Source: a virus. From it: a DNA stretch of 64,000 bases. Positions 23,890 through 55,600 of this stretch are shown piece after piece. The stretch covers positions 1-64,000 of IMG/VR virus record IMGVR_UViG_3300028364_000018. The stretch is one strand, 5' to 3'. The stretch's first letter is position 1. Every line of letters begins with the position of its first letter. The translations under genes and the position numbers were made by a program. The notes below the pieces were generated by a model that searched no databases, was not told the DNA's origin, and saw only the letters and a list, made by a program, of their open reading frames with translations.

Positions 23890-25184
23890 ACAACCTCCAA
23901 CTCCTATCTCAACTCCGCAGTATAAAGCGCGCAGGACAGTTCCCTTACGGGCCGCTGTCCCTGACGCAGAACGCCCCGCAACCACAGATGGCGCCCCCTC
24001 CTCCTCCACCGGAAGAACCGGAGGAGGATCCACGCCTGGGCGAGATGCAGGGACAGATAGAACAGAGTCAACAGGAACTTCAAAAGCTACAAGAGCAGAC
24101 GCGTCAACAAGACTCCGAACTTAAGTCCGAAAAACTTAGGACACAACAGGCTCAGGCCGAGTCACAGTTGATGAAACGTGATGCGGACCTGACCAAACGT
24201 GAGGCGGATCTCGTACGACAACAGGCGGAGGCCCAGACTCAAGCTGACGGTAAGACCGTACCTCATTTTAGCCCGACGGCCATGACTCAACTTAAGAATA
24301 TCCAGAAGAAGCTGCAGTTCCTTACTAAGGGCGCGGAGGCTGACAGATCCTTTGAACTACCTGCATCTTATGGCCCGAAGTCCCAGGAGTTTAAGGATAT
24401 AGTGGCGGCCCGCAGTCAGACCGACAACGGGTTTGTTCCTACCAGCTTCAAAGGTCCCAACGCTAGGGAAGCCTTTAATGTTAGTCAGGATGTCAATCAG
24501 ACTATGAACACTGGGCCCGGCAATACCCCGGAGGGGTATGATAGACGGTGGTTAACTACAGGACAGGCGGAGGGCCTTGCAGACGGTAACTGGCTAGAGC
24601 GACAATCACAACGTGCTGTGAATCTAGCACGACCTTTTGCTGTAGGGGCGCAGGGAGCCAGAGAAAACTGGCGTGCTGGCAATTACGGTAAAGCTGTTGG
24701 TCATGTCGCACAAGGAGCTCTAAGTACAGCCTGGAATCTGTCTCCCTGGGGCGCGGTAGGTAACATGGTCCTTAACGGCGATGGGGATAGTATGATTAAT
24801 CTAGGGATGCCGGAAACTGATAAGTATATGGAAGACTGGACAACCAACAGGCTCAACACCATGGAGTCCGCGTCAAGCGGACGGGACCTACTCCAAGGCC
24901 TATCCAACGATTACAAGGTGAACAACGACTTGCTGGGCGCGCCCGAGGGTGTGAGCGCTCAGGCCCTTAACCGCTACGAGCAGTACGCGGGTCTCACAAA
25001 GAATCCCAACGCAGGCCCGACCTTCATGCAAGGTACTCTAGATGCATACCGCGGTAACCAATATGGGGACCCCAACACATGGTTCGGACAAATCCTGAAT
25101 AGCGGGCTACCCTATCTATCTAAACTTATGACAGGCGGCCCACGCCCAACCCTACAACCCCCTAACCCAGGGTTGTACGCATGA
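23886..25184 (+). CDS. Putative virion protein with Pro stretch and coiled coil
   Basis: 432 aa overlapping both neighbours by 4 nt. Starts MNNLQLLSQLRSIKRAGQF (KxA motif). A polyproline run (~40-47) is followed by a glutamine-rich coiled coil (~55-125), then a Gly/Ala/Asn-rich body. Co-translated with the RNA polymerase piece, so it may be packaged with it. No enzyme motif seen. Confidence 0.55.
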   Translation: MNNLQLLSQLRSIKRAGQFPYGPLSLTQNAPQPQMAPPPPPPEEPEEDPRLGEMQGQIEQSQQELQKLQEQTRQQDSELKSEKLRTQQAQAESQLMKRDADLTKREADLVRQQAEAQTQADGKTVPHFSPTAMTQLKNIQKKLQFLTKGAEADRSFELPASYGPKSQEFKDIVAARSQTDNGFVPTSFKGPNAREAFNVSQDVNQTMNTGPGNTPEGYDRRWLTTGQAEGLADGNWLERQSQRAVNLARPFAVGAQGARENWRAGNYGKAVGHVAQGALSTAWNLSPWGAVGNMVLNGDGDSMINLGMPETDKYMEDWTTNRLNTMESASSGRDLLQGLSNDYKVNNDLLGAPEGVSAQALNRYEQYAGLTKNPNAGPTFMQGTLDAYRGNQYGDPNTWFGQILNSGLPYLSKLMTGGPRPTLQPPNPGLYA

Positions 25185-27085
25185 CCTACGCAGTAAAAGA
25201 CGGGCGAATTCAAGAGGTTGATGATCAGGAGATTGACATTGAGCTTCCGTCTGCCAATTCATTTTTAAGTATCCACGGTAACACCATTCCCATGCAGTCA
25301 GGGGTGCAGGCCCCCCGTGTGTTCTACGGGTCTAGGTTCTTGAATCAGGCACTACCGTTGGTCAACCCTGAGGCACCGCTGGTCCAGACCAAGATAGACG
25401 GACAGGACCGGAGCTTCGATCAGGAGCTAGGGAAGTCTATGGGCGCGGTATTCAGCGACAGACTTGGGCGGGTGCTGAACGTGGACAATGACCACGTCGA
25501 GTTAGAGGACCCGGAGACCGGGGAAACCTGGACTAAACAGCTTTATAACAACTTTCTTTTTAATCGTAAGACTAGTTTGCACAGCACCCCCAGTGTTAAG
25601 CAGGGAGATATGGTGGAGCCTGGCCAACTTCTGGCGCGCTCCAACTACACAGACGACAAAGGGACGTTGGCTATGAGTGTCAACGCCCGCATAGGTCTAG
25701 TCCCCTACAAGGGTTACTCCATGGATGACGCGGTGGTCATCAGCCAGAGCCTAGCCAATCGCCTTACTAGTAGGCAGACCTACGTAGAGGACCAAGAGTT
25801 TGATGGGGATGTTAAGGGTGGTAAGAATCATTTCCACTCGTTGTTCCCCACGGCTTTCAAGCAAACTCAATTGAAGAAGTTGGATGCAGAGGGGGTGGCG
25901 CGGGCCGGTCAGATTCTGGAGAAGGGTGACCCTTATGTGTTGGCGACCAAACCCAGGATGTTCACCTCACAAGCGGGGAGCTTGGGTAAGCTCAGCCGGG
26001 CTATGCAACAGACCCGGCAGGACGCGAGTTTGGTGTGGGATCACAATGAGCCTGGGACTGTGCAGGATGTCGTCCGGACTAAGAAAGGTGTGAAGGTAGT
26101 GATAGATACAGAGACACCTGTGATGGTGGGGGACAAGCTGACAGAGCGTCACGGAAATAAGGGCGTCGTATCCAAGATACTCTCTGATGAGGAGATGCCA
26201 CGCACTGTGGATGGTCTACCATTGGAGATGTTACTTAATCCTTTGGGAATTCCGAGCCGGGTGAATTCTGCGATGGTTTATGATATTTTACTGGGGAAGG
26301 TCGCCAAGAAAAGGGGCGAGGGTTACAATCTTCCGGCGTTTAATAAACCAGGGGAGAAATGGTATGACTTTGTAGAACAACAACTGGCGGAGCATGGGAT
26401 CGACGCGGAAGAACGGGTGTTTGATCCGATGGAGCAACGTGAATTGGAGAATCCAATTACAGTGGGTTACGCTCCTGTTATGAAGTTGCATCACATGGCC
26501 TCGTCGAAGCTCAGTGGTAGAAGTCAAGGCAGCTATTCGATGGACGAACAACCATTAAAAGGCGGATCCGACGCAGCCCAAGCCAAGCGTTTATCTGGAT
26601 TGGAACGTAATGCCCTAATCTCCAGCGGGGCCTACGCCACCCTACGAGAGAGTTCGACAATTCGAGGTCAGCGCAACGACGACTTCTGGAAGGCCGTTAG
26701 GTCAGGCCACACCCCGCGCGAACCAGGCTCACCCTTCGTCTGGGATAAGTTTCAGGCGCTTCTCCAAGGTAGTGGGATGCTCGCCAGAGATCTAGGTGGG
26801 GGCAAGCTGCGCCTCGGACCCTTTACCGATAAGAGCTTGGCGGAGCTCAAACCCCGAACGTTGGACAACGCCGACTCCGTTAACCCCGACACATTGGAGC
26901 CCGTAGCAGGCGGTCTGTTCGACCCTGTTCTGGTTGGTGGCGGACGTTGGGGTGCGATCGATCTGGATACCCCGGTACCCAACCCAGCGTTTGAGAAGCA
27001 GATAGCGCAATTGCTGGGCGTCCGGGAGAAGGATGTGCGTCGGGTGGTGGCAGGTGAGCTGGATCTGGAAGAAGCGCAAAAGTGA
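25181..27085 (+). CDS. RNA polymerase: C-terminal half of beta fused to the N-terminus of beta'
   Basis: 634 aa. It starts at the beta region after the rif cluster (FLSIHGNTIPM, AP.RV..GS..LNQALPL) and keeps beta hallmarks: NARIGLVPYKGYSMDDAVVIS (~170-190), GDKLTERHGNKGVVS (~317-331) with the active-site lysines, GLPLEMLLNPLGIPSRVN (~345-362), and LHHMASSKLSGRSQGSYS (~430). From ~555 the beta' start follows: LKPRTLDNADSVNPDTLEP-VAGGLFDP, as in the 'IRxWSxGEVxxPET..GGLFxxxIFG' beginning of beta'. So one chain carries beta-C plus beta'-N, while beta-N is not in the window and beta' continues at 51374. It would pair with the other pieces to form a phage-specific polymerase. Confidence 0.9.
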   Translation: MTYAVKDGRIQEVDDQEIDIELPSANSFLSIHGNTIPMQSGVQAPRVFYGSRFLNQALPLVNPEAPLVQTKIDGQDRSFDQELGKSMGAVFSDRLGRVLNVDNDHVELEDPETGETWTKQLYNNFLFNRKTSLHSTPSVKQGDMVEPGQLLARSNYTDDKGTLAMSVNARIGLVPYKGYSMDDAVVISQSLANRLTSRQTYVEDQEFDGDVKGGKNHFHSLFPTAFKQTQLKKLDAEGVARAGQILEKGDPYVLATKPRMFTSQAGSLGKLSRAMQQTRQDASLVWDHNEPGTVQDVVRTKKGVKVVIDTETPVMVGDKLTERHGNKGVVSKILSDEEMPRTVDGLPLEMLLNPLGIPSRVNSAMVYDILLGKVAKKRGEGYNLPAFNKPGEKWYDFVEQQLAEHGIDAEERVFDPMEQRELENPITVGYAPVMKLHHMASSKLSGRSQGSYSMDEQPLKGGSDAAQAKRLSGLERNALISSGAYATLRESSTIRGQRNDDFWKAVRSGHTPREPGSPFVWDKFQALLQGSGMLARDLGGGKLRLGPFTDKSLAELKPRTLDNADSVNPDTLEPVAGGLFDPVLVGGGRWGAIDLDTPVPNPAFEKQIAQLLGVREKDVRRVVAGELDLEEAQK

Positions 27086-34936: not shown

Positions 34937-35080
34937 ATGAATCAAGTAAAAAGAATGATGAGCTACCCCCGACGCATGTTCGAGCGCCTAACCCGGTTTT
35001 CGAACCACACAGGTCTGGCGCTGACAGAGATAGTCCGCCGGGCTGTTGATGAGTACCTGGATCGTAACGAAGTAAAATGA
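34937..35080 (+). CDS. Ribbon-helix-helix (CopG-like) DNA-binding protein
   Basis: 47 aa. Pattern of a basic strand (YPRRMFERLTRFS), then TGLALTEIVRRAVDEYLDR, the second helix of RHH repressors. It overlaps the nuclease gene by ATGA. RHH proteins bind operator DNA as dimers, so autoregulation of this promoter, which lies only a few bases upstream, is likely. Confidence 0.7.
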   Translation: MNQVKRMMSYPRRMFERLTRFSNHTGLALTEIVRRAVDEYLDRNEVK

Positions 35081-36459
35081 AAGTCACACGCATCATAAAC
35101 GCCGAACCTAATCAGGCCTTGCTACCTATATGCAAGGCCACAGCGTTTATGCGTGCTGACATCTGGCGGCGTTACGGCGCACTAGGCACAGCCGGTAAAA
35201 GGTTGAACACCGTAAAACCCGAGCTGCCTGCGTTGTACAAGTACCTAGATCTGGACGGTACGATTCGGGCAGAGACTGCCAAAGACGTACTCAACGATAT
35301 ATACTCATACAAAGAGGCGGCCAAGGAGAGGGTGCGAAAGTCTGTTAGGAAGAGGGCCGAGACCGACGAGGAGTTGAAACGGTTGTACACCCTGCTTAAG
35401 AAAGATGAGTGGTTGGACGACAACTTCCTACACCGGCAGATGCGTAAGCACTTCAAGCACGGCGTAGCCCATTGCGCGAATCAATTTGTGGTTCGTAGTG
35501 ATAGGGTGCTGACCGAGGTAGTGGAAGGGCGCCTAGTTGTAATCCTAAAGATTGCACCAAAATACGGGAACTCTATAAGGCTGACTACCACAACAAGTGG
35601 TAAGAACGTAGACCTCAAGGGCTCGAACCTGCGAGTAATTGTGAAAGATACGGGGGTGGAGATCCACTACTGCGCAGACAAACAACCCGGACGAGCGCCA
35701 GGAGTGGGTAAGATTGGGGTGGATAAGGGTTACACTGAGGCGTTTGCCGATAGCCGGGGAGGTCTACACGGACAGGGTTTCGGGCAGACCATGACCAAGT
35801 TCAGCGACCGGGTTAAGGAGACGGGTAAGTCCCGTAACAAACTCCGCGCGTTGGAGGAGAAGCACCGGGAAGCCGGTAGGGTGGCTAAAGCAGACCGGAT
35901 TAATAAAAACAACTTAGGAAATAAGAAGATTGAGAGACGAAAAGAACGGACACAAAAGAGACTGCGGACAATCGCTTTCAAAGCGGCTCACGCAGTTGTT
36001 GACCATGCCTCCCATGTGGGAGCAGAAGATTTGAGTTCTCCGATATGCTCCAAGCATAAATGGAGGAATTACAATCGGAGAATGAGTTCCTGGGCCAAAG
36101 GCGTTTTAGCCGAGGCATTGGAAAACGTCACGCAACAGCGTGGCTCGAAGTTACAGCTTGTTGCTTCGGCCTACACATCGCAAATTGATTCACAGACGGG
36201 CTTGCTGGAAGGCCAGCGCGTCGGGGATCGGTTTTACCACGTAAGTGGGGATGTCAGTCAGGCCGACACCAACGCTGCACGAGTGATTGAGCGACGGATG
36301 GATGACCCGGAGATAGGGCGTTACACGCCCTTCAAAGACATCCGTCTGATACTACTCAATCGCTCTCCGGCGCAACTGAGCGTCAATAGGGTCGAGTTGG
36401 GATCTTTGGATCGTCAACCGACTGCGGATAAACTCAATGCGCACTTATACGCATACTAA
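35077..36459 (+). CDS. TnpB/Cas12-like RuvC nuclease without zinc finger
   Basis: 460 aa. C-terminal half has the split RuvC motifs: IGVDKGYTEAFADSRG (Asp, ~215-230), HVGAEDLSSP (Glu, ~312), and SGDVSQADTNAARVIERR (last Asp, ~397). YTSQIDSQTGLLEGQRVGDR stands where canonical TnpB has a CxxC...CxxC finger, so the zinc-binding Cys are absent. This variant resembles the RNA-guided nuclease group between TnpB and small Cas12 proteins. No serine or tyrosine transposase adjoins it and no CRISPR array is seen. It is paired with an RHH protein and a leaderless promoter, suggesting domestication by the phage. Confidence 0.8.
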   Translation: MKVTRIINAEPNQALLPICKATAFMRADIWRRYGALGTAGKRLNTVKPELPALYKYLDLDGTIRAETAKDVLNDIYSYKEAAKERVRKSVRKRAETDEELKRLYTLLKKDEWLDDNFLHRQMRKHFKHGVAHCANQFVVRSDRVLTEVVEGRLVVILKIAPKYGNSIRLTTTTSGKNVDLKGSNLRVIVKDTGVEIHYCADKQPGRAPGVGKIGVDKGYTEAFADSRGGLHGQGFGQTMTKFSDRVKETGKSRNKLRALEEKHREAGRVAKADRINKNNLGNKKIERRKERTQKRLRTIAFKAAHAVVDHASHVGAEDLSSPICSKHKWRNYNRRMSSWAKGVLAEALENVTQQRGSKLQLVASAYTSQIDSQTGLLEGQRVGDRFYHVSGDVSQADTNAARVIERRMDDPEIGRYTPFKDIRLILLNRSPAQLSVNRVELGSLDRQPTADKLNAHLYAY

Positions 36460-39276: not shown

Positions 39277-40548
39277 ATGAAAGAATTACAGATTAAATGT
39301 CCGATTTGTGAGCAGTCGGGCGGGATCGAAGAGGTTTTGGTCAACGCGGTGGTGGTGACGCGCATGACGTTGCGGGAGGATAGCGACGGAGAGTTGGAAC
39401 CCGTGTACGAGCACCACAACGTGCTCTCAAGCGATGTAGAGCGCTACCAGTGCTTTTTCTGCGGTGGATTTCTGGCCGCTGATATGGAGAATCTCAAGGA
39501 GTTGGCGAGGGAGAATACCGAACTCACAACAAAGGAAAAGATGAATTTTAAACTAAACAAGAGCGGGGGTTGGATCATTCCCGCTGATACGCGCATCGAA
39601 CGTGACTGCGTTATACCCGCCCACAGTCAGCTTGGGGATGAGTGTGAGCTCGGGGATGAGTGTAAGCTGGGAGCGTGGTGTAAGCTGGGAGAGAGGTGTA
39701 AGCTGGGAGCGTGGTGTAAGCTTGGAGATGAGTGTGAGCTGGGAGTGGGGTGTAAGCTGGGAGAGAGGTGTAAGCTGGGAGAGGGGTGTAAGCTGGGAGA
39801 GAGGTGTAAGCTGGGAGCGTGGTGTAAGCTTGGAGATGAGTGTAAGCTTGGATATGAGGGTGAGCTGGGAGCGGGGTGTAAGCTGGGAGCGTGGTGTAAG
39901 CTGGGAGCGTGGTGTAAGCTGGGAGCGTGGTGTAAGCTTGGAGATGAGTGTGAGCTGGGAGAGTGGTGTGAGCTGGGATCGGGGTGTGAGCTGGGAGCGG
40001 GGTGTGAGCTTGGAGAGAAGTGTGAGCTTGGAGCGTGGTGTAAGCTTGGAGCGGGGTGTGTACGGCCGTTTAAGGGACCTATGCTCAAGTTAGTAGCTAC
40101 GGAGCTTGACGAGGACCTGGAAGTTCCTGAAGATATCAATTGGTCTATGTACGGACCCTTTATAAAGATGCATCTTGTTGAGGCGGGGCTAACCGAAGAG
40201 CAGGCAGACAGCGGTATAGCTCGTAGGTCGTTCTTAGCAAGGGCAGCGTTAGCGGGGTACTTGAGTAAAACCGAACCCAAGGTTAGTCAGAGGATAAAGG
40301 AACTTAGGCGGGAAACCAAGACCGCGGCAGAACAACTGGTTGAGACCGTGAACGTCACGGGCGGCCTAACACACCCACCAGCTGGCGGACCCGCAATTCA
40401 CGACTCTTGGTTGGACTTGGGCGAGGCTTATTTACAGGCATGCGCCGAGTTGGGCGTCGAACCACAATATGAGGAACAAGATGAACATCGAGGAACACCA
40501 GTTAGCGAACATGAGGAAAACCATCATAAACCACTGCGCCGAAACTAA
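39277..40548 (+). CDS. Cysteine-ladder left-handed beta-helix protein
   Basis: 423 aa. Residues 8-70 form a zinc-ribbon pair (CPIC ... CFFC). Residues ~105-118 (WIIPADTRIERDC) begin a hexapeptide beta-helix that continues as 24 uninterrupted copies of L-G-x-x-C-(K/E) (residues ~119-262; DNA 39631-40062). The pattern fits the [LIV]-G-x-x-[STAVC]-x rule of left-handed beta-helices with Cys in the buried turn at all but one step. That would stack about 23 thiols in a line. The C-terminal 150 residues are helical and charged. No acyltransferase active-site His is evident, so it is probably structural or metal-binding. Confidence 0.7.
   Translation: MKELQIKCPICEQSGGIEEVLVNAVVVTRMTLREDSDGELEPVYEHHNVLSSDVERYQCFFCGGFLAADMENLKELARENTELTTKEKMNFKLNKSGGWIIPADTRIERDCVIPAHSQLGDECELGDECKLGAWCKLGERCKLGAWCKLGDECELGVGCKLGERCKLGEGCKLGERCKLGAWCKLGDECKLGYEGELGAGCKLGAWCKLGAWCKLGAWCKLGDECELGEWCELGSGCELGAGCELGEKCELGAWCKLGAGCVRPFKGPMLKLVATELDEDLEVPEDINWSMYGPFIKMHLVEAGLTEEQADSGIARRSFLARAALAGYLSKTEPKVSQRIKELRRETKTAAEQLVETVNVTGGLTHPPAGGPAIHDSWLDLGEAYLQACAELGVEPQYEEQDEHRGTPVSEHEENHHKPLRRN
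39631..40062 (+). repeat. 24 tandem 18-bp units encoding LGxxC(K/E)
   Basis: Units such as CTGGGAGCGTGGTGTAAG repeat in frame. The two variable codons come in a small set (GCG TGG, GAG AGG, GAT GAG, GAG GGG) while the others are nearly fixed, so the array probably grows and shrinks by slippage or recombination. Confidence 0.85.
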
Positions 40549-47791: not shown

Positions 47792-48844
47792 CTATTGAAC
47801 CGAGTATAAAGCAGGAGGGCTATAAACTCCCCTGTTGCGAATGTTGATGGCTGCGTTTAAATCCGCATCCATACGATTATCACAAGCAGTACAAGCAAAG
47901 GCTTTCCCCTTACGGGAGGCCCGGTCTTGTACGCCGCACGCACTACAGGTCTGAGAAGTATAAGCCGGGTTGACCTTCGTAAAGGTCAACCCAGCTTCTT
48001 CACAAACAGATGCTAGCTTGCCCAAAACCTTTGGGTACGACCAGCGCTGTAGTTTGTTATTAAATTTCTTACTCATCTGCCCTCTGGATTTGTGCTTGAC
48101 CGACTTCAGGTCTTCAACCACAACCTCCCGTACCCCCGCCAAGTCCAACTTATTCACCACCCGGTTAATCAGGTTATCCCTCTCTGTCAGCGCCCGCTTG
48201 AAGGCCTGGGAGCCTTGTTTCTTACGTGCGATCTTTTCGTATTGAGCTTCAAGTTCCTGCCCATGCTCCACTCCTTCGGAGTCTGCGAGCAGCGTCTTGT
48301 AACCGCAATCATAACCAACGGACTTACCTTTCTTGACAGGAAGGGGCTCTACCTTCTCAGCATAAAGGTCCAAGTAATACCTATCCCCGGCCTTGCGTAG
48401 CCGGGAGCTCTGCTTGATTAAAAACCCTTTGTCCAGCAGGTCGAGCATATGACGATGCTTACGGCTAGGAAGATTTAGTATAATCTTAGATCCAAGACAG
48501 GAGAGTCTAAACCACACATCATATGAGTTTTGATCAAGTTTTATGTCTAAGAACCTAGCATCTAAGTTTATGGTCTTGCGTGTTAAGGTCGGTTTAGACT
48601 TCTTGCGCTTCTTACGTTGCGACTTAACGATCTCCAACGCTTGCTTACCCAGAGCCTGCTGTAATCGCGCGGATAACCATGTTGGGACTTTATAAGTAAC
48701 GAACTTGGAAGAAAAGTCCCGCTCATCCCACAACCTGTCAATAAACAGATTCACAACTTTAACCGACTCTTCCAGCACCCGGTCAAGCTCCAGTAGCTTT
48801 CCATGGTTGGAGTCTGCCAGATTAAATTGTATACGTCTAATCAT
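47792..48844 (-). CDS. tnpB: TnpB RNA-guided nuclease
   Basis: 350 aa, full length for a compact TnpB. RuvC-I GYDCGYKTLLADSEG, RuvC-II VVVEDLKSV, the zinc finger TCSACG...FACTAC and RuvC-III DADLNAAINI are all intact, so catalysis is expected. TnpB uses an RNA from the element's end to cut the donor or target site and so maintain the element. Translationally coupled to the recombinase. Confidence 0.9.
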   Translation of the reverse strand: MIRRIQFNLADSNHGKLLELDRVLEESVKVVNLFIDRLWDERDFSSKFVTYKVPTWLSARLQQALGKQALEIVKSQRKKRKKSKPTLTRKTINLDARFLDIKLDQNSYDVWFRLSCLGSKIILNLPSRKHRHMLDLLDKGFLIKQSSRLRKAGDRYYLDLYAEKVEPLPVKKGKSVGYDCGYKTLLADSEGVEHGQELEAQYEKIARKKQGSQAFKRALTERDNLINRVVNKLDLAGVREVVVEDLKSVKHKSRGQMSKKFNNKLQRWSYPKVLGKLASVCEEAGLTFTKVNPAYTSQTCSACGVQDRASRKGKAFACTACDNRMDADLNAAINIRNRGVYSPPALYSVQ

Positions 48845-49406
48845 TACTAAGCTCTTTTATTAATTTTTCCGTTTTTCGCTTAGTTCTTCTAAGTCCGTAA
48901 AGTCTGGCACAAAAAGAGGTGACTAAAGACACAAAGTCTTGCATCAGATCTTGCTTGTCGTCCTCTACCTTATTGACCACCACCAATTCTGCATTACGCT
49001 CATCCATCAATACTTCAAGATACTTAAACCCGAACCTTGTTAGCCTGTCTTTATGCTCTACAATGATGCGCGTGTAAGTCGGATCTTTTAATAACCGCAG
49101 TAACTTAGGTCTTGCATCATTTAACCCGGAGCCCACCTCTTTTACTACAGCATCAACACCCCAACCTCTCGCGTTAGCGTATGCGACGAGTCTGCTGGCC
49201 TGCCCTTCTAAGTTAGATTCGTTCTGCGAGGAGCTAACTCTAGTGTAAATAGCAGTTTTTTCCGGGCGTTGTGGTGCATCCTCCGGTATAAGAATCTTAC
49301 CTAGGTCATCCTTAAACGCGCCGGGTATTTTGCCAAGGTTAAACCTGTTCCACGCAGCTCGGTACTGTATACCGTGCTGTTTTGCATATTTACTTAGTGT
49401 CAACAT
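48837..49406 (-). CDS. tnpA: IS607-family serine recombinase
   Basis: 189 aa. N-terminal MerR-like helix-turn-helix (LSKYAKQHGIQYRAAWNRF), then the resolvase domain with catalytic Ser in AIYTRVSSSQN (~55-64) and EHKDRLTRFGFKYLE (~115), ending in a basic helix RTKRKTEK. Length and layout match IS607 transposases with N-terminal DNA-binding domain. Starts 6 nt after a -10 box. Confidence 0.9.
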   Translation of the reverse strand: MLTLSKYAKQHGIQYRAAWNRFNLGKIPGAFKDDLGKILIPEDAPQRPEKTAIYTRVSSSQNESNLEGQASRLVAYANARGWGVDAVVKEVGSGLNDARPKLLRLLKDPTYTRIIVEHKDRLTRFGFKYLEVLMDERNAELVVVNKVEDDKQDLMQDFVSLVTSFCARLYGLRRTKRKTEKLIKELSND

Positions 49407-50252: not shown

Positions 50253-51308
50253 ATGCCAGATAAAGCCCTATTCCAGATGTTAGCCGCCAAGAACGACAGT
50301 GACCAAGGTCAGTACAAAGCCAAGGCGGACAAGATGTTTAAGCTCCTGATGACACAACCGGATGAGTTTGAGGTGGAGGACGATCCCAAAGGTGGGCATC
50401 CTCTCCTCACCCATCGCCCCACCCACTTCAAGATGCACCTACCTAAGCGGTACATCCCGGCACGTGTATGGGACTCCCCGCACGAAGCGTTGGTTAGCAG
50501 GGAAGTGATAGATAAAGAAAAGGAGGCGAGCACTAAGGAGGACCGAGCGGTCCCTGCTTACGTAGCCAAGCAAGCTGGACTCCCCAGGAGTGTGAAGATG
50601 ATACCTTACATTCGGAATTACGCAGACGAGGGTATGCGGCAGATTCTATCACGACCCCGATGGCCAGCTACCCTACGGGAGCCACTACCATGGGGTAACT
50701 TTGCCGCATACGCGCCGGAAGGTACAAATGCTTACAACGTGATAGGCTCTGACATCCCCAAGGTACTACAAGGGATGGGTTACGGTCGGAAAATGTATGG
50801 AGCAGCAATACGTACAGCGTATGAGGACTACCTAAAAGGGGGTCCTCGGTGGTTTGGGTCAGATAGCAGTGGGCGGACCACTACTAAGGCTTGGCACCTG
50901 TGGGAGAGCCTACAGAGAAGAGGTTACCCGGCTAAACAGATGCCGATGGATTTCCCCAGAAAAGGTTACCACTCACGATGGGCCATCGACTTAGATGACA
51001 TGAAGAAATTTTACAAGGATGTTAAACCCAATGGTCCGGCTACGGGCAAGCCCGTGACACGCGTAGGTCCCCCGGTTAAGGAAGCAAGCGTCCCGTCCGA
51101 CAAACAACTGCTGTCCCAGACCGACCTGAACCCCAGTGAAGCTCAGCAGGAAGCCGGTAACTACCGGAAGGCCCATATCAAACTACATGGGTTGGACATC
51201 TCAATCGAGAATCCCCGGGGAAGTACCAGGAGCGGGGTTGGTCCAGATGGTAAAGAGTGGAGCCACAAGCTCGATCTACACTATGGATATATCAAGGGCT
51301 TCAGCTAA
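50253..51308 (+). CDS. GNAT-like protein ending in the N-terminal half of an InPase domain
   Basis: 351 aa from ATG 50253 (promoter-set). Middle part has AKQAG (KxA motif), then an acetyltransferase-like stretch VIGSDIPKVLQGMGYGRKMYGAAIRTAYED (~165-195) with a following SD(S).G..T.KAWHLWESLQRRG. The C-terminus KAHIKLHGLDISIENPRGS ... HYGYIKG is the first half of the InPase (inorganic-pyrophosphatase-like) domain typical of polyvalent phage proteins. It stops right after GYIKG; the second half (DGDAPDCFIGP) lies at 51374 in another frame. Part of a virion-delivered protein set, by inference. Confidence 0.7.
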   Translation: MPDKALFQMLAAKNDSDQGQYKAKADKMFKLLMTQPDEFEVEDDPKGGHPLLTHRPTHFKMHLPKRYIPARVWDSPHEALVSREVIDKEKEASTKEDRAVPAYVAKQAGLPRSVKMIPYIRNYADEGMRQILSRPRWPATLREPLPWGNFAAYAPEGTNAYNVIGSDIPKVLQGMGYGRKMYGAAIRTAYEDYLKGGPRWFGSDSSGRTTTKAWHLWESLQRRGYPAKQMPMDFPRKGYHSRWAIDLDDMKKFYKDVKPNGPATGKPVTRVGPPVKEASVPSDKQLLSQTDLNPSEAQQEAGNYRKAHIKLHGLDISIENPRGSTRSGVGPDGKEWSHKLDLHYGYIKGFS

Positions 51309-51328
51309 GCTCCAGCCTTCCTTTTTTT
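51294..51328 (+). terminator. Terminator-like hairpin inside the split InPase gene
   Basis: AAGG(G)CT 51294-51300 pairs with AGCCTT 51314-51319, with bulge, then seven T (51322-51328). Weak stem but with a T-run; it spans the stop codon 51306-51308. Confidence 0.45.
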
Positions 51329-51338
51329 AGCTATGACC

Positions 51339-51373
51339 TTGACCAACGCCCCTTTAAATACTACCATCCGAGG
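51339..51373 (+). promoter_or_regulatory. Leaderless promoter for the 1408-aa polymerase protein
   Basis: TTGACC 51339-51344, 17-bp spacer, TACCAT 51362-51367, 6 nt, ATG 51374. It lies in the gap that splits the InPase domain. Confidence 0.6.
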
Positions 51374-54300
51374 ATGAATACCAAACTACAGGCCATAGAC
51401 GGAGACGCCCCAGATTGCTTTATAGGACCTAACCCTGAATCTACCAAGGTTTGGGTGGTAGACCAATGCAAACCCAATGGGAAGTTTGACGAGCCCAAGG
51501 TACTACTGGGGTTCGACACCCAGAAGGAAGCTACGGACGGATATCTCAGTGCTTACGATGAAGGCTGGAAGCTGGGGCCGGTCACTGCCTGCACCATAGA
51601 TGAGTTAAAGGGTTGGTTGGGGGATGGGTGTGTGCCCCATGAGTTTGCTGAGTATAAGAAGGGGGTGAAGTCGGAAGGAGAGAAGGAAGCGGCTAGTAAC
51701 TCAGTAGCCCTCATCAAGGGTAACCCTAAGCACATCAAAGACAATCCCAACGCTACGTCCTTCTATGAACAACTAGAAGGGTTACTACAAGAACAAGGCT
51801 ACGACGTAACTATGGATGACGGAGAACCCTTCACACAACCCGGAGAAGGGCACTCAGCATGGATCGGGCATAGTAGAGGTGGGGATAGGTTAAGGTTTGC
51901 GCCTGAGGGTGTAAGCACCCTAAGGTTAGACGACTACGAGCCAGAAGACTCACATGGGGAGGATGGTGTTCCTAATGACAACCACTATATGATAACAGAT
52001 GAGATGCGTGAAGCTATACTCGGGTTGTCTAAGAGTGGCGAGAAGAGTGCTAACGGCGGGCGAGCTGTGGGGTTGGATAATTTTGACGGCTCGACGCAGG
52101 ACCCAAACCTAGGCACACCCCAACCCAACCTTGCTCTCGGCATACGGGATTTGGCGAAGCAAGCTGGCCAGGCGCCGACCACAGGGACCCCCACTCCATG
52201 GGCGGGGCAAGAACAGATGCTCAAACACCTGTGGAACGCCGAGAACAACATACGCGACGGTTACAACCCGCAGTCCGGGACTTGGACAACCTACGATGAC
52301 AACGGCACGCCCGCTGTAGGACCCGGAGTACGTGTACCAGGTAAACAAGGCCAGACTTGGACGGATCAGCAGGTACAGGAGTTGGCGATTACCTCGATGC
52401 AAGAACACCTGGAACGGACCCGCAGGCGTTACCCACAGTTCGATACACTACCCATGCATTATCAGATGGGCTTGGTGGACGCCACCTACAACAGCGTGCG
52501 AACACCCCTGATGTACCAAGCGATGTTGGATGGGGATCATCGACGTGTGCTCGGAGAGAACTCAACACATTGGACGGATAAACATGGTGTTCGGCAACCG
52601 CATACCCGTCGGGATGGACTCAGACAGGAACTGATGGCACCTCCGGGCGGTGTACCAGCCCTTCCCACTCCACAACCCACGCCTACTCCAACCCCAGTGC
52701 CTACTCCCGCCCCAGCTGTTGCCCCAGCTGCAACCCCCGCACCCACAGGTCCCACGATGGCCCCAGGGCCGGGCGTACCTGCTCCTGCTGGGTACATGCC
52801 AACCACTGACAACCCCCCTACAAGCTACCATCAGGGTGCTGACGGTGCTGTGAGCTACATGGTACCCAAGAGCGGGGCTGTCGTGGAAAGGGCTGTGACC
52901 GGCCCCAGGGCGCTGGCTGAGGCCCTATCCGAGTTAGATCTGGATAAGCTGGAGGCCGAACAACGGGAGATCATCAAGAGCGGTAGTCGGAGTAAACGCT
53001 CTAAGGCTGTGCAGATCCTGGGCGCTATTGAAGGCCTCCGCCGTAATGAACTGACACCCAATCAGCTGATGATCAGCCGTGTGCCGGTCTTGCCCGCGCA
53101 ATTCAGACCTTTCAGCGCACAGGGCACGACCTTCATCCCCGGAGATGCTAATGTACTGTACAAAGACCTGTTTAACCTGAAGAAGGCCTATGCACAGGAG
53201 AGTCAGGTGTTTGGCGAGGACCAGGCAGGGGAAAGCCGGGGGTCGCTCTATGATGCGGTACGCGCTGTCTACGGTTACGGACCTCCGACCAACGATAAGG
53301 CGCGGGCCAAGGGTGTGAGCGGTTTCATGCAGAAGGTGCTGGGTGCTGGGTCCCCGAAACACAGTTTTTACCAACGAAACCTGATTAGCAAGACCCAGGA
53401 CAGCTCCGCACGCTCTGTGATTGGGGTGGACCCAGAGTTGGGCATGGATGAGATTGGTATACCCCAGGAGATGGGTTGGACTTTGTATGGGCCTTGGGTG
53501 CAGCGACGGCTCGTGCAGTCAGGGATGAATCCGGGCACGGCGTTGGAGAATGTCCGGGATCGGACGGACTATGCTGTGCGAGCTTTGGAGAAGGAGATGA
53601 GGGAGAGGCCGATTTTGGCGACGCGTAGTCCTGTATGGTGGAAATTCGGCGTGCTAGGCCTTACCCCGCACCTAGTAGATGGTGATGCGATTATGTCCAA
53701 CCCTTGGATTGAAACCGGCCTGGGCGCGGATCACGATGGTAATTGCGTCATAATCGGAACCAAGTTGATGGTGAAAGTACAGGATGTAAGGCTCGTGGCT
53801 GATAGGTCAGGAGATTGTGTCATAATCAGCGTTGACAAGGATAGGGAGACTGGTTATGATAGGCGTTACATGAGAATACCTAAAGGCGCCAAGGTTCTTT
53901 CCCAGCTCGGAACCGATACCATCATTGAGCTACCTATTGAAAACTTCCCACGCATGGGAGAGGCGCACACCGCTAAAGACGGAGGACTAACCTACGAAGT
54001 CCCGCCAGGAGTCCAGGTCCTGACCAACGCCCCGGACGGTCTGGGTGTGCGCTGGACACCGGTCACGACCTTCACGGTGGATGGAGTTAAACCCATACGC
54101 AGGCTTACCAGCAGCTCTAAGAAGGTGGTGGAGGTTAGCAACAATGAGTCAGTGGCAATCTACAACAAAGGTGGAACCATCGGAAGGACCAGCCCGGATG
54201 AACTCCGACCCTGGGATATGGTACCAACCATCCGTAACCTACCGGAGCCTGCTGAATCACGTTCATGTCCTTGGGCGTGGTTCTACGGAGCGTTCGTATC

Positions 54301-55600
54301 CGACGGCTGGGTTAGCGAGGGTAAGACAGTTGGTTACACCAAGGTAGATGCGGCTAAGCGTCGGCGTTTCCTGAAAGAGGCGGTGGAGTTCATCGGCATG
54401 GATGTGGACGTCAAACACTACTCTGAGACTCACGAGGCCCTGACCAACTCCGGCATTGGCGGTGAAAGCACTAAGATACATATCAACCTACGAGAGGATT
54501 CCCCGCAGGGTGTTCGGGACATGATCGAGGCCTTGGAGCGTTGTTACCACCCGAGTGTAAAGGATCGGGAGCCCGACCAACGCAGTTGCCTATTCAAACG
54601 ACTTCCTCCCGGTTATTTGGAATGGGACCAACCCAGTCGCATGGATTTGTTCTCCGGACTGCTGGATGGGGACGGTTGTATATCAATCAACAACTCCAGA
54701 GCCAAGCCCCAGGTGCTGGTTAACTTCAGTACCAGCTCCCCCTTCCTCAGGGACGACGTCTTCAAGCTATGTCTATCTCTGGGCATCCGGTGCTCCACCT
54801 CAGTGGGAGAGGCCAAGAAAGAGCGGGTACAGACACACGAGAGTTATGTGATGAACATCAGTACCCCGGACCTACTACCACTCGCGGGTCAACTGAACAT
54901 GGTGGAGAATAATAGGGGCCTGCAGATGCTACGAGCCTGCCCCAGCTTGAAGGATGACCGGGATACTCTACCTGTGGAGGAACCACTCCTGCACCAAGCC
55001 TGTGTACTCGGCGCGTTAGACCCCAAGGGCTCTAGTAACAGAGTGACTCTGATGGACTTGCGGTCTAAAGCTCGTCGTCAAGAGGGTTTGGTGGGAGTCA
55101 CCCGTAATCTTGCACGCAATCTCCTACAGGATTACCTGGGCGAGCGTGATGAGCGCTGGGAGGTGTTGGAACGCCTTGTTCAGGACACATCCCTTGGTTG
55201 GGAGACCATCAAGACCGTGGAGGACACGGGAGAGGCTGAGGTATTTGATATCGGAGTACCGGAGACCAAGGTCTATGCCTTGAGTAACGGCCTCATCATC
55301 TACGACACCTTCAACGTACATCTCCCAGCCTCTGCGAAGGGTGTGGAGGAGGCGCGGACCATCTTGAAGCCCAGTAGCATGCTGTTCCAAACCCGGGATC
55401 CCGGTAAAATTTTGCCGGTTCCCAAACATGAGCAAATTTCGGGAATTTCTTCAGCCATGCGACGCCCTGCCCGGAACTCCCACGTGTTTACCTCGGAGGA
55501 GGAGGCGATTAAGGCTATCAACAGTAAGCAGGTGAGCATGTCGGATGAAATAACGATTAGTGCCTTGCCAAACCCAACTCAAACCCCTACAATACTCTGA
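51374..55600 (+). CDS. Polyvalent RNA polymerase beta' protein: InPase-C, lysozyme-like, RpoC catalytic centre, intein
   Basis: 1408 aa. 1-90: rest of the InPase domain (GDAPDCFIGPNPES...VDQ...KFDE.KVLLGFDT). ~255-265 LAKQAGQ; ~270-410 GH24/muramidase-like (NAENNIRDGY...TYDDNGTPAVGPGV...HTRRDGLRQELM); Pro-rich linker ~415-475. From ~540 beta' follows: PVLPAQFRPF...YKDLFNLKKAY, then FYQRNLISKTQDSSARSVIGV.PELGMDEIGIP, WWKFGVLGLTPHLVDGDAIMSNPWIETGLGADHDGN. Here a 521-aa intein (791-1311) breaks the ADFDGD motif; then TFNVHLPASAKGVEEARTI continues beta' for ~97 residues. Bridge helix and trigger loop must be encoded elsewhere. Domain company suggests a virion-carried, injected polymerase. Confidence 0.9.
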   Translation: MNTKLQAIDGDAPDCFIGPNPESTKVWVVDQCKPNGKFDEPKVLLGFDTQKEATDGYLSAYDEGWKLGPVTACTIDELKGWLGDGCVPHEFAEYKKGVKSEGEKEAASNSVALIKGNPKHIKDNPNATSFYEQLEGLLQEQGYDVTMDDGEPFTQPGEGHSAWIGHSRGGDRLRFAPEGVSTLRLDDYEPEDSHGEDGVPNDNHYMITDEMREAILGLSKSGEKSANGGRAVGLDNFDGSTQDPNLGTPQPNLALGIRDLAKQAGQAPTTGTPTPWAGQEQMLKHLWNAENNIRDGYNPQSGTWTTYDDNGTPAVGPGVRVPGKQGQTWTDQQVQELAITSMQEHLERTRRRYPQFDTLPMHYQMGLVDATYNSVRTPLMYQAMLDGDHRRVLGENSTHWTDKHGVRQPHTRRDGLRQELMAPPGGVPALPTPQPTPTPTPVPTPAPAVAPAATPAPTGPTMAPGPGVPAPAGYMPTTDNPPTSYHQGADGAVSYMVPKSGAVVERAVTGPRALAEALSELDLDKLEAEQREIIKSGSRSKRSKAVQILGAIEGLRRNELTPNQLMISRVPVLPAQFRPFSAQGTTFIPGDANVLYKDLFNLKKAYAQESQVFGEDQAGESRGSLYDAVRAVYGYGPPTNDKARAKGVSGFMQKVLGAGSPKHSFYQRNLISKTQDSSARSVIGVDPELGMDEIGIPQEMGWTLYGPWVQRRLVQSGMNPGTALENVRDRTDYAVRALEKEMRERPILATRSPVWWKFGVLGLTPHLVDGDAIMSNPWIETGLGADHDGNCVIIGTKLMVKVQDVRLVADRSGDCVIISVDKDRETGYDRRYMRIPKGAKVLSQLGTDTIIELPIENFPRMGEAHTAKDGGLTYEVPPGVQVLTNAPDGLGVRWTPVTTFTVDGVKPIRRLTSSSKKVVEVSNNESVAIYNKGGTIGRTSPDELRPWDMVPTIRNLPEPAESRSCPWAWFYGAFVSDGWVSEGKTVGYTKVDAAKRRRFLKEAVEFIGMDVDVKHYSETHEALTNSGIGGESTKIHINLREDSPQGVRDMIEALERCYHPSVKDREPDQRSCLFKRLPPGYLEWDQPSRMDLFSGLLDGDGCISINNSRAKPQVLVNFSTSSPFLRDDVFKLCLSLGIRCSTSVGEAKKERVQTHESYVMNISTPDLLPLAGQLNMVENNRGLQMLRACPSLKDDRDTLPVEEPLLHQACVLGALDPKGSSNRVTLMDLRSKARRQEGLVGVTRNLARNLLQDYLGERDERWEVLERLVQDTSLGWETIKTVEDTGEAEVFDIGVPETKVYALSNGLIIYDTFNVHLPASAKGVEEARTILKPSSMLFQTRDPGKILPVPKHEQISGISSAMRRPARNSHVFTSEEEAIKAINSKQVSMSDEITISALPNPTQTPTIL
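53744..55306 (+). other. LAGLIDADG intein in the beta' metal-binding motif
   Basis: 521 aa: Cys1 start CVIIGTKLMVK; two LAGLIDADG motifs FYGAFVSDGWV (host residue ~970) and FSGLLDGDGCI (~1093); C-terminal block VFDIGVPETKVYALSNGLI, then IYD followed by Thr. The last residue is Asp instead of Asn and the penultimate Tyr instead of His. Spliced extein would read ADHDGN-TFNVHLP, with Asn where the third catalytic Asp of ADFDGD belongs. Insertion in the most conserved DNA of the gene is typical of homing inteins. Confidence 0.9.
55565..55593 (+). promoter_or_regulatory. Sigma70-like promoter with short leader
   Basis: TTGCCA 55565-55570, 17-bp spacer, TACAAT 55588-55593. Start expected near 55600, leaving about 17 nt before ATG 55617. 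Confidence 0.45.

Follow-up and report, generated by a model that had tools for sequence, protein, structure and literature searches.

What does an intein leave behind when it interrupts the metal-binding loop of an RNA polymerase and the residue at its left edge is not the catalytic aspartate? The window analyzed here, a stretch of 64,000 nt from a virus record of 122,487 bp, raises this question in an ORF encoding the N-terminal half of the beta' subunit. The features concerned are as follows.

51257..55600 (+), ORF of 1447 aa, start codon provisional: InPase-like domain, lysozyme-like stretch and N-terminal half of RNA polymerase beta', intein-interrupted
51389..51619 (+), InPase domain (PF18823; Pfam E 1.5e-21), fused upstream of beta'
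52892..53743 (+), beta' N-extein (RNA_pol_Rpb1_2, preceding the intein; Pfam E 1.9e-7), ending ...GLGADHDGN
53741..53743 (+), residue -1, Asn (AAT), at the position of the third catalytic Asp
53744..55306 (+), intein of 521 aa, Cys1 to Asp521
53744..53761 (+), block A, Cys1 to Thr6 (CVIIGT)
53798..53827 (+), internal extein-like copy ADRSGDCVII, 72 nt after ADHDGNCVII
54137..54151 (+), block B, S132-N-N-E135-S136, with Glu replacing His B:10
54287..54310 (+), LAGLIDADG motif 1, GAFVSDGW, catalytic Asp kept
54656..54676 (+), LAGLIDADG motif 2, GLLDGDG, catalytic Asp kept
55241..55306 (+), blocks F and G, VFDIGVPETKVYALSNGLIIYD, the most conserved 22 aa of the N-type inteins defined below
55307..55597 (+), beta' C-extein from Thr+1 (TFNVHLP...)
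25181..27085 (+), RNA polymerase beta subunit segment of the same phage, without an intein

Cys1 is encoded by TGC at 53744-53746, and the last intein codon, GAC (Asp521) at 55304-55306, is followed by ACC (Thr+1), giving the junctions ...ADHDGN/CVIIGTKLMVK and LSNGLIIYD/TFNVHLP. The first-pass annotation had placed an intein with Asp as its last residue in this loop; its frame and coordinates are exact, and homologous inserts occur at the same site. It had also predicted that plain splicing would leave ADHDGN, with which the N/C and D/T junctions agree. The DxDGD triad of two-barrel beta' is therefore encoded as DxDGN, while the other active-site motifs and the Rpb1_2 match are kept. The C-terminal half of beta' lies at about 69,898-72,141 of the record, beyond the window, so that beta' is split into two genes. 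No second intact beta' gene copy was found in the 122,487-bp record or in the records of relatives, which may be incomplete. A similar InPase-beta' fusion was seen by eye in one relative, L107. Elsewhere in the window, a beta'-like fragment (40111-40251; weak match, 28%, E 4e-5) lies inside the ORF of a hexapeptide-repeat protein (39277-40548), and TnpB-like ORFs were recognized by eye at 47792-49406 and 35077-36459, one of them adjoining a resolvase-like ORF (IS607-type pair).

To establish the native residue, the N-extein was used as the query and the site was read in about 80 related phage loci. The third position is Asp in all intein-less loci, mostly within ADFDGD. A stricter non-redundant count over all loci gives 58 different sites with Asp in 56; the two Asn sites, L114 (on the same contig as L158) and L128, each carry an insert. 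Native Asn was thus found in none of the intein-less relatives read, and the outcome that the first-pass annotation had named as refuting its reading did not occur. A DNA scan for ADFDGD followed by Cys returned only native Cys and no inteins, and missed L107. A related beta' frame on a MAG contig (L127:5049-5079) breaks after GLNADF near the contig end, through either an insert or misassembly.

Six further homologous inteins occupy exactly the same site (L031, L107, L114, L119, L125/L126 and L128), making seven with that of the window. Their left junction, block B and right junction read as follows.

L031: GD/S, SSDH, QD/T
L107: GD/C, SEDH, QD/T
L125: GD/S, SDDH, FD/T
L119: GD/D, TDDD, SN/T
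window: GN/C, SNNE, YD/T
L114: GN/C, SANE, FD/T
L128: GN/C, SANE, YD/T

We refer to L031, L107 and L125 as D-type (GD/S or GD/C, block B S-x-D-H, end [Q/F]D/T) and to the window, L114 and L128 as N-type (GN/C, block B S-x-N-E, end [Y/F]D/T). Asn at -1 is paired with Glu at block B position 10 in 3/3 inteins, and Asp at -1 with His in 3/3, L119 standing apart; the N-type sample comprises three members, one of which (L128) comes from a MAG contig. L119 (5847-7775) has no Cys or Ser at position 1 (GD/DANN) and displays another non-canonical set of residues. The C-terminal Asp, which had been called rare, is the norm in this family (6/7). Beyond what the first-pass annotation noticed are the block B Glu, the absence of the block F His, the same-site family itself and the occurrence of Asn-1 in three phages.

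Searches for further members were pattern-based or limited to the matches listed, so absence elsewhere is a weak result: the window insert gave only partial tblastn matches to other inteins in phages, mostly in the LAGLIDADG region, the search of plasmids gave none, and the L031, L114 and L128 inteins gave none in phages. The same phage also has a canonical-looking mini-intein (Cys1, TDDH, KN/S) in its beta' C-half (L013:6858-7271, at about 70,858-71,271 of the record, beyond the window), of which several relatives carry a longer, LAGLIDADG-bearing version. Long in-frame gaps break the beta and beta' C-half matches in four relatives (G003, G005, G010 and G011), suggesting that this phage group carries several inteins per polymerase.

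The fold was modeled with AlphaFold from the seven-member alignment, as single-sequence folding was uninformative. The model (pLDDT 75, pTM 0.79) finds its best PDB matches in the homing-endonuclease inteins PI-PfuI, TliVMA and PI-SceI (Foldseek, E down to 4e-18). Searched alone, the insert contains LAGLIDADG_3 (Pfam, E 3.3e-7), and its Intein_splicing match is sub-threshold (E 1.7e-4). It is thus predicted to combine a Hint splicing fold with an endonuclease. Like the class 1 LAGLIDADG inteins named above, it has Cys1, a hydroxyl or thiol residue at +1 (Thr) and the block F Asp. Unlike them, it has SNNE (SANE in L114 and L128) in place of the block B TxxH, Lys509 in place of the block F His, and Tyr-Asp instead of the C-terminal His-Asn, for which rare Gln and Asp variants are known; [Y/F]D ends all three N-type inteins. 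The block B His, the block F His, the penultimate His and the final Asn are therefore missing together. The insert is in frame at a conserved site that homologues have uninterrupted, but its plain removal gives DGN rather than the DGD of the host, whereas removal restores the native residue in L031, L107, L125 and L119. Cys1 speaks against class 2, which has no Cys or Ser at position 1. A class 3 reading from an early alignment with phage inteins was dropped, because position 4 of block F carries Asp502 and not Cys.

The internal copy ADRSGDCVII might seem to offer another boundary. As a duplication of the junction (ADHDGNCVII) it is not convincing, an equally good match being found in 6 of 1530 control 30-mers, and if the inner Cys were the splice point, the product would keep ADRSGD and be 24 residues longer. 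The copy probably belongs to the intein, since the L128 and L125 inteins have an insertion at this place with an extein-like GGDF of their own. N-extein-like stretches thus lie near the N-terminus of three inteins: ADRSGDCVII in the window, FGGDFDRN in L125 and AATGGDFER in L128. An RNA intron was rejected by reasoning, as the ends obey neither the group I nor the group II rules under which GGT-GAC would be restored.

Without its block B His and terminal His/Asn pair, the intein could be degraded and no longer splice, in a polymerase on its way out; PMC3196547 presents such a case, Arth_1007, as a pseudogene intein. We regard this as unlikely for the window. The N-type inteins are mutually only 33-36% identical, and yet all have N-1, C1, S-x-N-E-S, VPETKV[YF]A and [YF]D/T. 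Their last 22 aa are 59% invariant, against 21% overall, and rank first of all 22-residue windows. The -1 codon differs among them (AAT, AAT and AAC), and therefore the amino acid is what is kept. The reading frame is open, and GC3 of the insert (0.62) is close to that of the extein (0.65). Nor is the host polymerase fast-evolving: from root to tip its extein measures 1.51, the median being 1.66. Decay does not fit these sequences. Since three unlike phages have Asn-1 and the other odd splicing residues in common, the element appears to be a distinct type of intein that is being maintained, not one that has broken down.

The inheritance of the Asn was followed by comparing trees. In the intein tree, a branch with support 1.0 separates the N-type members from the others, and it is from the inteins, not from the exteins, that the group is named. 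In the extein tree, from which the last 20 residues were left out and in which most deeper forks are unresolved and three rows have long branches, the N-type hosts are scattered, L128 being sister to the intein-less ADFDGD locus L030 (93/95). A topology uniting the three hosts is rejected (AU p = 1.4e-5); three changes of state are counted. Because the N-type inteins form one clade while their host polymerases do not, the Asn appears to travel with the intein: either homing carried the Asn along with the intein, or the intein drove each host to Asn.

If the polymerase tolerates Asn, compensating changes might be visible in its sequence. No N-extein column has a residue common to the three hosts and absent from the others; one column in the beta' C-half (Ile88) and five in beta, where L128 has no coverage, are private to N-type hosts. 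We therefore see no active-site compensation in their sequences. The first-pass annotation had offered three options, namely a tolerant polymerase, atypical splicing and a switch. Tolerance is possible, with no compensating change apparent behind it; atypical splicing gains most, as the odd residue set is kept in three divergent inteins; the switch has no positive evidence.

We consider it reasonably probable that the element is a functional, non-canonical, class-1-like homing intein and that the Asn enters the metal loop, there to be either tolerated or turned into Asp; we infer that the intein splices, at which junctions it does so, and what becomes of the Asn. Its insertion point would lie directly after the third metal-binding Asp (D/T) of a phage beta'. 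In the N-type lineage, -1 would have become Asn together with the replacement of the block B His by Glu, both being inherited with the intein. An N-S shift at Cys1 would start splicing, followed by transfer to Thr+1, cyclization of Asp521 to free the C-terminal bond, and an O-N shift joining ADHDGN to TFNVHLP. By known chemistry, the junctions N/C and D/T would thus place the Asn in the metal loop. An Asp in the -1 position tends to attack the (thio)ester of which it is part, and Asn-1 could therefore spare the intein premature cleavage.

Each odd feature has a published precedent singly, which supports this reading. Inteins ending in Asp or Gln can cyclize and the last Asn is replaceable; no intein residue is more conserved than His B:10, to which two exceptions were known in 2014 (PMC4031507). 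Engineering has demonstrated that the role of the block B His can be taken over by a bulkier residue at -1 (PMC6333167). Archaeal PolII inteins have an Asn-1/Cys1 junction (PMC8175363), and the equivalent catalytic loop of PolD carries an intein and has a motif less strict than DFDGD (PMC4996933). The Pyrococcus PolII (PolD DP2) inteins resemble the window intein in their position in the catalytic loop of a homologous double-psi barrel, in Asn-1/Cys1 and in a last residue other than Asn (Gln), but they keep the block B His and have Cys+1; moreover, the two known critical Asp of PolD are not the Asn at the junction. The Tko CDC21-1 intein has likewise lost the block B His naturally, but uses a Lys outside the motifs, whereas the window intein has Glu at the same position, linked to Asn-1. 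A Carboxydothermus intein, a single case, reportedly ends in Asp as the window intein does.

The resulting Asn could be a weaker metal ligand, or it could be deamidated to Asp at or after splicing, alternatives that we rate about equally. Replacing the third Asp should cripple a multi-subunit RNA polymerase. The presence of Asn in three separate hosts without compensation leads us to lean towards conversion, while the slow deamidation normal for Asn-Thr leads us to lean against it. That Asn-1 is deamidated, or the junction shifted, during splicing with the help of the block B Glu, giving back the catalytic Asp, is accordingly a tentative proposal that we find possible but doubtful.

Two other readings are less likely than a functional non-canonical intein. 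The first-pass annotation had noted that a splice one residue out of register would restore ADHDGD. Excision of N829...Y1349 of the ORF would indeed keep the right-hand Asp, present in all D-type and N-type members (6/7), and yield a normal polymerase in each; but it needs cleavage at G/N and [Y/F]/D, for which we know of no intein chemistry, L119 (GD/D...SN/T) sets the insertion phase at D/T, and in D-type inteins an Asp invariably stands on the left, as though that were the residue kept, so that we give this account very little credence. It is just as improbable that the intein cleaves without ligation or is regulated, splitting or silencing beta' in the metal loop as a switch, since regulatory evidence of any kind is absent and every N-type intein retains Cys1 and Thr+1, the nucleophiles for ligation, even if hindered chemistry would favor a slow or partial reaction and beta' of this phage is already two genes.

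The third Asp of DxDGD is invariant in every relative read without an intein of the N-type subfamily. In three separate host polymerases both this residue and the block B His have changed, in concert and on a mobile element. The pattern resembles extein-intein co-evolution arising naturally at -1 and block B, comparable to the engineering of this pair in PMC6333167. Either RNA polymerase works with Asn at this position, which bears on two-metal catalysis, or splicing alters the residue that it leaves behind. If the latter is true, splicing would edit an active-site residue, and every new host could be saddled by the intein with a seemingly lethal mutation that is then put right in the protein.
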